A DNA stretch of 12,210 nt from Arenicella sp. (GTDB lineage: Bacteria; Pseudomonadota; Gammaproteobacteria; Arenicellales; Arenicellaceae), in NCBI GenBank assembly GCA_018677115.1, contig JAHHOC010000444.1, positions 1 to 12,210 of the forward strand. The letters run 5' to 3'. Of the stretch, positions 2,990 through 6,022 are shown in pieces. The position numbers were made by a program, and so were the translations under genes. Each line of letters starts with the position of its first letter. Position 1 is the stretch's first letter. The notes under the pieces are model-generated. The model saw only the letters and a program-made list of their open reading frames with translations, was not told the DNA's origin and made no database searches.

Positions 2990-3892
2990 TCACAGCACTT
3001 CGGTTTGCTCGATTACTTTTGCGAGCTCGATAGTCGGGTCAGAGCCGTCATCGCAGTGCAATCTGTGGGCAGCAGCATACGGTGCGAGGCTTTGCACATC
3101 TTCCGGCAACACCGAGTCCCGTTGTTCCACGAAAGCCAGCGCCTTGGCCGCCTGTAGCCACTGTAAACCTGCCCGCGGGGACAAGCCGTTGACGAATTTA
3201 CCACTATTGCGTGTAGCGTCCACCAGCTTGTAGAGATAGTCGATAATTGCGTCACTGACGTACACTTGCTCCACCTGCTCGATCAGGTCGCTAACTTCTT
3301 GCAGTTCGAATATAGCACTGCGCGATGAGGTAGGTTTTGCGCCATTCTGCTTCAATAACTGGCGCTCAAAATCGGCTTCAGGATAACCCAGCGACAGTCG
3401 CATCAGGAAACGATCGAGTTGCGATTCAGGTAATGGGAATGTGCCGCTCTGTTCCAGTGGGTTTTGAGTTGCGATCACAAAGAATGGGTCGGGGAGGTTA
3501 ATCTGATTGCCATCAACTGAGACCTGTTGTTCTTCCATTGCCTGTAGCAGAGCGCTTTGCGTTTTTGGCGTGGCCCGGTTGATTTCGTCGGCCAGCAGGA
3601 TGGAGGTAAACACGGGTCCGCGTTTGAAATGAAACTTCTTGCTCTCCATATCGAAAATGGTCATGCCGACGATATCAGTAGGCAGCAGGTCACTGGTGAA
3701 CTGAACTCTCTTGAAAGGCAATCCAAACAGATCTGCCAGGGCATGTGAAAGTGTTGTTTTACCAACGCCCGGAATGTCCTCAATCAGCAGGTGGCCCCTG
3801 GCTAGCAGGCACACCACTGCTAATTTTGTTGCAAACGGATTACCCAATATGATTTTGTTTAACTGTTCGAACAGCTGATTCAGCTTCTGCAT
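2990..3892 (-). CDS. MoxR-family AAA+ ATPase
   Basis: A 300-residue AAA+ ATPase of the MoxR class. Visible motifs in order: Walker A PGVGKTT (41-47), Walker B LLADEINR (99-106), sensor 1 ATQNP (141-145), the MoxR-type LPESQLDRF (154-162), and the sensor 2 arginine in LSPRAG (237-242). Length and motif spacing match full-length family members. MoxR ATPases act as chaperone-like factors that help mature or activate partner proteins, often with DUF58 or von Willebrand factor A proteins; the exact client here is unknown. The gene sits 20 bp downstream of the K+ channel gene and 32 bp upstream of DUF58, in the same direction, so one transcript probably carries all of them. The start ATG at 3892 has a purine-rich GAGGAAGAGAG about 10 bases upstream. 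The immediate physical link to a K+ channel gene raises the possibility that the channel is co-regulated with, or a client of, this ATPase; that is speculation. Confidence 0.93.
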   Translation of the reverse strand: MQKLNQLFEQLNKIILGNPFATKLAVVCLLARGHLLIEDIPGVGKTTLSHALADLFGLPFKRVQFTSDLLPTDIVGMTIFDMESKKFHFKRGPVFTSILLADEINRATPKTQSALLQAMEEQQVSVDGNQINLPDPFFVIATQNPLEQSGTFPLPESQLDRFLMRLSLGYPEADFERQLLKQNGAKPTSSRSAIFELQEVSDLIEQVEQVYVSDAIIDYLYKLVDATRNSGKFVNGLSPRAGLQWLQAAKALAFVEQRDSVLPEDVQSLAPYAAAHRLHCDDGSDPTIELAKVIEQTEVL

Positions 3893-3912: not shown

Positions 3913-5115
3913 CTATGGTAATCGTGACTCGGCTTTGCCGCGCGTAATCCAGCGTAGCAGTGGGATGTAGTGAGGGTTTTGGTTTATCAGCGTGTCGACC
4001 AACTCTGAATTGTCCCGCAATCTCAGTGCTAATAGCGGACGCCGGCGGGTGCCGCAGAACAATAAATCATCGTCCGGCATCAGTTCAACGTCCTGGTCCG
4101 GCAACAGTTGTGTATTTCCGTCGCGATACAGCAACAATGCGATGCCGCGCGCGGCTGGAAACAGGGGGTGGCTGCACAGATCTCCTACCGTCAACTTGCG
4201 CCCCGATTGCATGTGTTTGCAAAGCGCCGGCGCGCTGATCCTGTTTAAGGTCAATCTGGTGGTTACAGGGCTTTTATTTCGCGTAACCTGGCCAATATCA
4301 GCTATCAGCTTTTCGGTGTCATCTATGGTAAGCCCATTTGAAAATCTGAGAAACTTGCTGACCAGCGGGCGTGACATGATTGTAAGGGCTTCAGTTGCGA
4401 CGATCTGGCTGCGACGCATTATGTAGTCGCAGTTGGCCCGTACGAAGAGCGGCTGGTTGGCCTCTTTGCCGACCCTGCCGATGGTATATATATCTTTGTT
4501 CAATTGTTGCGCTGTAATCAGGATCGACAGGTTATTAGCATCGTCATCACTCGACGCGATGATTACCGAGGCATCAGCTATTCCAGCCTCCTCGAGGGTA
4601 GAGGCTTCGGTGCCCCGTCCCTGGATAATTTCATGCTCGTCGTTCCATTCATCCGGATTGGTATCAACCAATACCATTTCAATGCTGTTATTGGCCAGCT
4701 GCTTGTGAATGGCTCGCCCCATTCGACCATAGCCGCAGATAATCCATCGACCTTTCGGCAGTGGCCGGCCGGATTGATGTTCAGGGCTGTGTTGGTTCAA
4801 AAACCAGGTTTGCACCTTGTGTAAAGCGGGTTTATTTACCAGCAGGCTCAGGCGGCGGGCGAAAGTGCGGTACGGATTGATAATATAATCAGTGCCAAAC
4901 GAAGCCATATTGTTCTCTTCATCTTCGATCTCTGACCTGCAGATAACGGGCACATTTGCATTCATCAGTTTGGCACTGACTGCAATTTGCAGGTTGGTAT
5001 GGTCGTTTTCGGTAACTGCGACGACGCCCCGGCAGTTCGGATGGTTGATTCCTGCGGCAACCAGACTTTGTGGCTCAGTGGTGTCTGCATTAAAGGCAAT
5101 AGGCCTTATGCTCAT
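3913..5115 (-). CDS. RCK/TrkA-N NAD-binding regulatory part of a K+ channel (downstream piece of a stop-interrupted gene)
   Basis: A 400-residue open frame beginning at ATG 5115. It starts in the middle of a Rossmann fold: the first 60 residues supply the second half of the first RCK domain (ADTTEPQSLVAAGI, then VVAVTENDHTNLQIAVSAKL). A complete second RCK/TrkA-N domain follows, with the dinucleotide motif GYGRMG at 128-133 and the acidic strand end at Asp151. A TrkA-C-like region occupies about 300-356. These are cytoplasmic ligand-sensing domains that gate K+ flux. The frame is the same as that of the pore-bearing gene upstream; only TAA and one GAC codon separate them. No Shine-Dalgarno sequence precedes 5115, so any separate translation would need re-initiation just after the stop. 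The most likely reading is one channel gene broken by a nonsense codon, or sequenced with an error there; a functional two-subunit split is less likely. The gene ends with TAG 20 bp before moxR. Confidence 0.85.
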   Translation of the reverse strand: MSIRPIAFNADTTEPQSLVAAGINHPNCRGVVAVTENDHTNLQIAVSAKLMNANVPVICRSEIEDEENNMASFGTDYIINPYRTFARRLSLLVNKPALHKVQTWFLNQHSPEHQSGRPLPKGRWIICGYGRMGRAIHKQLANNSIEMVLVDTNPDEWNDEHEIIQGRGTEASTLEEAGIADASVIIASSDDDANNLSILITAQQLNKDIYTIGRVGKEANQPLFVRANCDYIMRRSQIVATEALTIMSRPLVSKFLRFSNGLTIDDTEKLIADIGQVTRNKSPVTTRLTLNRISAPALCKHMQSGRKLTVGDLCSHPLFPAARGIALLLYRDGNTQLLPDQDVELMPDDDLLFCGTRRRPLLALRLRDNSELVDTLINQNPHYIPLLRWITRGKAESRLP

Positions 5116-5118
5116 GTC

Positions 5119-5121
5119 TTA
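5119..5121 (-). other. In-frame TAA inside the K+ channel gene
   Basis: Reading the minus strand, the codons are ATT GAA ATA TAA GAC ATG AGC. Frames before and after are identical (5613 and 5115 differ by 498, a multiple of three), so no frameshift is involved. The codons on both sides encode adjoining segments of one Rossmann fold. By recall, relatives have a run like LELEDL here, and IEI-stop-DM aligns with it, so the missing residue would be Glu and a single GAA-to-TAA change would explain the break. Confidence 0.8.
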
Positions 5122-5613
5122 TATTTCAATGCTGCTGGTTCGATCAGGGTTATAGTCGATGATAATAGTCTGTAACCCGAGTTCGGCCAGCCCCTCATTG
5201 ATAAGCGCGCCGGTTTCACCGTATCCGCAAATCAGATAAAAGGGCAGGTCTATACGATTAATGCTGCGTTCGAAAGCTTTGCGCGAGAGCGCCTGGCGGA
5301 AGGCCTGGTTTTGTAACAGATTCAGCATGCTGCCGATAGCGTACAGCCATGCACTAACCGAAATGTAAATACATACCAGCACCCAGGCACGCTGCGCATC
5401 GGAGAATGCATAGGGAATTTCACCGAATCCGATGGTTGTGCCCATAAAACTGACAAAATAGAAAGCATGAAAAAAACTCATGTACCAGACATTTCCATCC
5501 TCGTCGACGCCGGGAATAAGCGTCATGACAAAAGTCGCCACCGCGTATACGCTAACCAGCAGGATGAGCGGCGCACGCAGGCGCCTTAATACCAAAAAGA
5601 AAATATCCGACAT
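5119..5613 (-). CDS. Two-TM K+ channel pore with start of RCK domain (upstream piece of a stop-interrupted gene)
   Basis: A 164-residue open frame. Membrane helix 1 lies at about residues 14-33, a pore loop with the K+ selectivity filter TTIGFGE at 59-65, and helix 2 at about 77-99. A cytoplasmic linker leads into the first Rossmann motif GYGETG (130-135) and the strand ending IIIDYNPDR (Asp153). The frame then stops at TAA, before the rest of the fold. The GFGE filter differs from the textbook GYGD but still reads as a K+ pore. As annotated, the protein could make a membrane pore but not a complete RCK domain. The remaining fold is encoded directly downstream in the same frame. The start ATG at 5613 has GGA about nine bases upstream and lies 25 bp after the DUF6394-type gene. 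Together the two pieces make 565 sense codons, about the length I recall for channels with one pore unit and two RCK domains. The single-gene interpretation is inference; pore and fold motifs are seen directly. Confidence 0.85.
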   Translation of the reverse strand: MSDIFFLVLRRLRAPLILLVSVYAVATFVMTLIPGVDEDGNVWYMSFFHAFYFVSFMGTTIGFGEIPYAFSDAQRAWVLVCIYISVSAWLYAIGSMLNLLQNQAFRQALSRKAFERSINRIDLPFYLICGYGETGALINEGLAELGLQTIIIDYNPDRTSSIEI

Positions 5614-5638: not shown

Positions 5639-6022
5639 TTACTTGCGAATTTGACTGGTTTCGATAATAAGCAGTACTACCGAGAGCAAATTTGCCACCA
5701 GGGCTCCTCCGGACAGGGAAACAATACTCGCCATGCTCGCGCTGTCCACCCCGCTTATGCCGCTGTCTGCGCTATACCACCATACAACAGCCGCGGCAAT
5801 CAGTTGCAGGTCGGCAACCAGGCTCGAAGCGAGCACTGTTGAGCCGAAATGCGTACGGTCACCAAATTTTAATAAGGTGCAGATCAGGCTGACCACCAGG
5901 GCGGCGAACAATTCGTAGAAATGATGGTGAGTCGGATCAGACAGATCACCGACAAAAAAACCAAAATTCAATGACAGGGCGAGAATGATAAAGAACGCGA
6001 ATACTACTTTCTCGAAATTCAT
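5639..6022 (-). CDS. Small four-helix membrane protein, DUF6394-like
   Basis: A 127-residue, very hydrophobic protein with about four membrane helices (residues 5-25, 36-54, 61-83 and 96-120). Short loops include a histidine triplet at 32-34 (DPTHHHFYELFAAL), and the tail is short and basic. From memory it resembles the DUF6394 family found next to ion-channel genes in marine gammaproteobacteria; function is unknown and the family name should be verified. It is first in the leftward operon, 25 bp ahead of the K+ channel gene. It may therefore be an accessory subunit of the channel, but nothing in the sequence proves this. The start ATG at 6022 is well supported by AGGAG seven bases upstream (6030-6034). 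No cofactor or catalytic motif is evident. Confidence 0.8.
   Translation of the reverse strand: MNFEKVVFAFFIILALSLNFGFFVGDLSDPTHHHFYELFAALVVSLICTLLKFGDRTHFGSTVLASSLVADLQLIAAAVVWWYSADSGISGVDSASMASIVSLSGGALVANLLSVVLLIIETSQIRK

Follow-up and report, generated by a model that had tools for sequence, protein, structure and literature searches.

A single in-frame stop in an otherwise open K+ channel gene raises the question of whether the gene is truly divided, has recently been lost, or has merely been misrepresented in the draft that carries it. We favor the last of these: with a probability of about 60%, the stop is a base-level assembly or sequencing error in a fragmented draft, in which case the species' real gene would be uninterrupted and the lone TAA introduced by that error.

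The channel frame occupies minus-strand positions 5613-3913 of the window (the whole 12,210-nucleotide stretch analyzed) and is broken only by the TAA at 5121-5119, which is followed by a GAC codon (5118-5116) and an in-frame ATG (5115-5113), leaving a gap of 3 bases between stop and ATG (Table 1). The first-pass annotation had described one frame split by a single TAA, with one GAC before ATG 5115 and all remaining codons intact: the coordinates bear this out, and no further stop occurs in the channel frame between the TAA and 3913. An intact version would be open throughout its roughly 566 codons.

That the gene is real beyond chance follows from Pfam matches to Ion_trans_2 in the first piece (E = 2.4e-7; 31 bits against a cut-off of 22.5) and TrkA_N in the second (E = 1.2e-33), and from alignment of the whole interrupted frame with intact relatives. 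The motif TIGFGE (residues 60-65), taken here as the K+ filter signature, is shared without variation by 27 relatives and also occurs in this sequence. Pore and RCK domains are encoded in the same frame, with the stop falling inside RCK1, and two TrkA_N stretches per chain are found in the 3 intact relatives scanned. Judged from its sequence, the gene encodes an unremarkable K+ channel with two pore helices and two RCK domains, from an Arenicella-related gammaproteobacterium; it is considered an ordinary feature because the stop is most likely a rough-assembly error or a recent private mutation. As in other members of the family, gating is predicted to occur by ligand binding to the RCK domains.

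The intact orthologue P0002 (genome G015) is 71% identical and has the same domains, near-equal length and the same gene neighbors but, unlike the copy here, no stop. By sequence, the solved structure closest to P0002 is the 'TrkA domain protein' of PDB entries 4gx0/4gx5 (E = 2e-12, carried by RCK2, the pore and RCK1 match being below 5 bits), which we take to be GsuK. It is distantly related and carries pore, RCK1 and RCK2 on one chain, in the order in which the channel frame here encodes them, but in the copy here the stop interrupts RCK1.

Table 1. Features of the interrupted channel locus (positions are those of the window).
Feature	Coordinates	Strand	Description	Source
First piece, 164 aa	5119..5613	-	Two-helix pore (filter TTIGFGE) followed by strand A, helix A, strand B and helix B of RCK1	Pfam Ion_trans_2; secondary structure of P0002
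In-frame TAA stop, residue position 165	5119..5121	-	Sense residue in 148/149 aligned relatives, gap in one	
Second piece, 400 aa	3913..5115	-	Remainder of RCK1 and whole of RCK2; in-frame ATG 3 bases past the TAA	Pfam TrkA_N
DUF6394 gene	5639..6022	-	Just upstream of the channel, same direction	Pfam PF19931
MoxR-type AAA ATPase gene	2990..3892	-	Just downstream of the channel	Pfam AAA_3

Position of the stop and constraint on either side

The position of the cut was read from a structure model of P0002, the closest intact relative (mean pLDDT 85.6; pTM 0.74; 27 sequences), in which RCK1 has strand B at residues 148-153, helix B at 156-164 and strand C at 172-175. On this model the cut is placed just past helix B, with position 165 opening a loop inside RCK1. 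The initial view that the first piece ends just after a strand is therefore refined, the piece being modeled to end after helix B, while its placement of the cut inside RCK1 holds; the second piece, as had been supposed, continues the same fold, and holds the entire second RCK domain in addition to the rest of RCK1.

At the stop column the 148 relatives with a residue carry Glu (98), Gln (13), Ala (11), Asp (7), Leu (7) and others, the 149 aligned rows being 119 database proteins and 30 loci with some redundancy (L032 and L004 share one contig, and P0002 is L003). The suggestion that the lost codon was probably GAA for Glu agrees with the commonest residue, but because the column varies among relatives the original residue cannot be told.

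Constraint was compared by leave-one-out across 17 congener sequences, with invariance defined by 16 congeners. Past the stop none of the 90 congener-invariant positions is altered, the joint lowest value of the 17 sequences. Ahead of the stop 4 of 60 are altered (residues 29, 71, 102 and 164, the last adjoining the stop), the joint highest value, together with L004, L013 and L018. An old pseudogene was rejected as an explanation, since no damage has accumulated past the stop.

The stop in relatives and breaks elsewhere in the draft

The genus lies in the order Arenicellales, of which 109 genomes were searched with P0002 as query; 50 gave strong matches (E<=1e-60), the present draft (G000) included, and the more distant of these matches may include paralogues. 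A mid-gene stop is absent from all of the other 49: a TAA listed for G012 is that gene's own end, and none appears in the other search over nearly the same stretch. The channel gene is intact in 16 of 17 congeners, the exception being a genome without a match (G006; 82% complete). A wider search at E<=0.001 gave matches in 88 of 119 genomes, many of them weak and to other TrkA-type genes. Four weak matches (E above 1e-8; G037, G035, contig 65 of G025 and contig 20 of G015) have stops inside and were left uncounted: they span 141-162 query residues around RCK2 and were taken as other genes.

The stop is thus private to this contig, and a conserved two-gene design was rejected, the split being found in 0/49 other strong-match genomes of the order. 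This is in keeping with the earlier statement that a true pore/RCK split would be unusual. The further proposal, that the break is recent, an error, or somehow tolerated, is upheld by the absence of the stop from the 49 other genomes and by a downstream frame without decay. No conspecific copy was found among the best 120 of 1840 matches to the second piece or the best 120 of 420 matches to the first; within these sets the nearest database proteins besides the channel's own are 70% and 76% identical, respectively.

G000 consists of 510 contigs (2.34 Mb; 82% complete), and 81 of these (413,787 bases, window included) were compared with 60 stretches of G015 (1,040,158 bases). Interrupted frames were flagged in 4 of 114 matched, two of which look like true breaks on reading: the channel, and a transketolase whose frame shifts by one base near L064:4892 (contig 32 of G000), with 75% and 78% identity to G015 on the two sides. 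The other two were dropped by eye, namely a 148-aa frame (probably a shadow frame) that has no Pfam family and lies mostly just upstream of and opposite tatC, and a LysE-type gene in which every stop is upstream of the Pfam domain. The reverse comparison flagged 1 of 109 (tatC, with an over-long 5' end), which by eye is no true break. G000 has no strong PF00456 match besides the broken transketolase; the one other match (E = 1.3e-9, still above the cut-off) belongs to a frame of 901 aa. That a gene of core metabolism is also broken in this draft favors base-level error, the sample being small (one extra broken gene among 113), although the transketolase shift could be genuine, or another copy could sit in the portion of the genome that the draft lacks. 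Frame-shift pseudogenes have been put down to read errors elsewhere (PMC6701015).

Explanations of the stop

One explanation is that translation stops at the TAA and re-starts at the ATG 3 bases on, the pore and RCK pieces then rejoining across the loop between helix B and strand C of RCK1. The cut does fall at a loop in the P0002 model, and a gap this short would permit re-initiation: lengthening the native overlap of three E. coli gene pairs to a gap of +2 lowered re-initiation by 5, 20 and 70% (PMC10666635), and given these data and the short gap the second piece could be made. The first-pass annotation had pointed to the lack of a ribosome site at ATG 5115, and the computed anti-SD energy there is indeed +0.4, against -3.5 at the channel's own start. 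The argument has little force, however, because first-ATG starts (a crude set) and internal Mets share much the same spread of energies, and among the 153 first-ATG starts of the contigs sampled, 35 are no stronger than ATG 5115. A 400-aa relative, P0095, begins by eye at almost the same residue as the second piece, but it lies on a contig of 1296 bases with an adapter-like tail that we assume to be adapter-derived. Database N-terminal fragments (those below 200 aa among the best 120 of 420 matches) end at scattered places: besides the channel's own, only P0143 and P0238 end exactly at 164-165, while P0151, P0240 and others end within a few residues. P0143, P0238 and P0095 are the only hints of similar pieces among the matches listed. 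Against two working pieces stand also the absence of the arrangement from every other strong-match genome of the order, the rarity of Met in column 167 (3 of 148 relatives, without the stop) and an unexceptional RNA fold past the stop (z = -0.69). None of the papers listed in our literature search was seen to treat a split RCK channel with an in-frame stop. We consider two working pieces improbable; a naturally split RCK channel, in which halves made by re-initiation would come together at a surface loop and form a functional gating ring, is slightly more so. Were the stop real and the halves functional, a Rossmann-type gating domain would be operating in two pieces.

The constrained frame past the stop would equally be expected if the TAA were read through or recoded in an intact gene. 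Yet TAA ends 5 of the 8 other genes of the window whose stops were counted, the stop column tolerates so many residues that no special one is called for, no stable RNA element lies past the stop, and the stop is not conserved; we regard recoding as very improbable indeed.

A real and recent nonsense allele, private to a strain or population, is possible although not the favored explanation. It would leave the channel lost, or a stunted pore and perhaps a soluble RCK fragment, and would be too young to show decay: the stop is found here alone, the remaining frame is unscarred, and with the nearest listed relatives so distant a recent event on this branch would escape notice. Such a loss would nevertheless be unusual in a gene kept by nearly all congeners, and the transketolase is broken in the same draft. 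The channel is moreover the sole Ion_trans_2 match in G000 (82% complete), and a second K+ channel covering the loss was accordingly rejected.

Base-level error thus remains the preferred explanation. Two observations run against it: the ATG right past the stop is a mild coincidence (at 25 of the channel protein's 562 positions, one of the two codons that follow encodes Met), and the altered invariant positions ahead of the stop include one that adjoins it. If error is the cause, the case warns that a lone stop in a fragmented draft should be compared with relatives and with any other breaks that the draft contains.

Gene neighbors

The MoxR gene lies beside the channel in 16 congener loci (L003-L018), of which L009 reaches only the first 61 residues of MoxR. 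DUF6394, a family of unknown function, adjoins the channel in 30 of 30 relative loci examined (29 distinct contigs), a constancy that hints at a shared role with the K+ channel.
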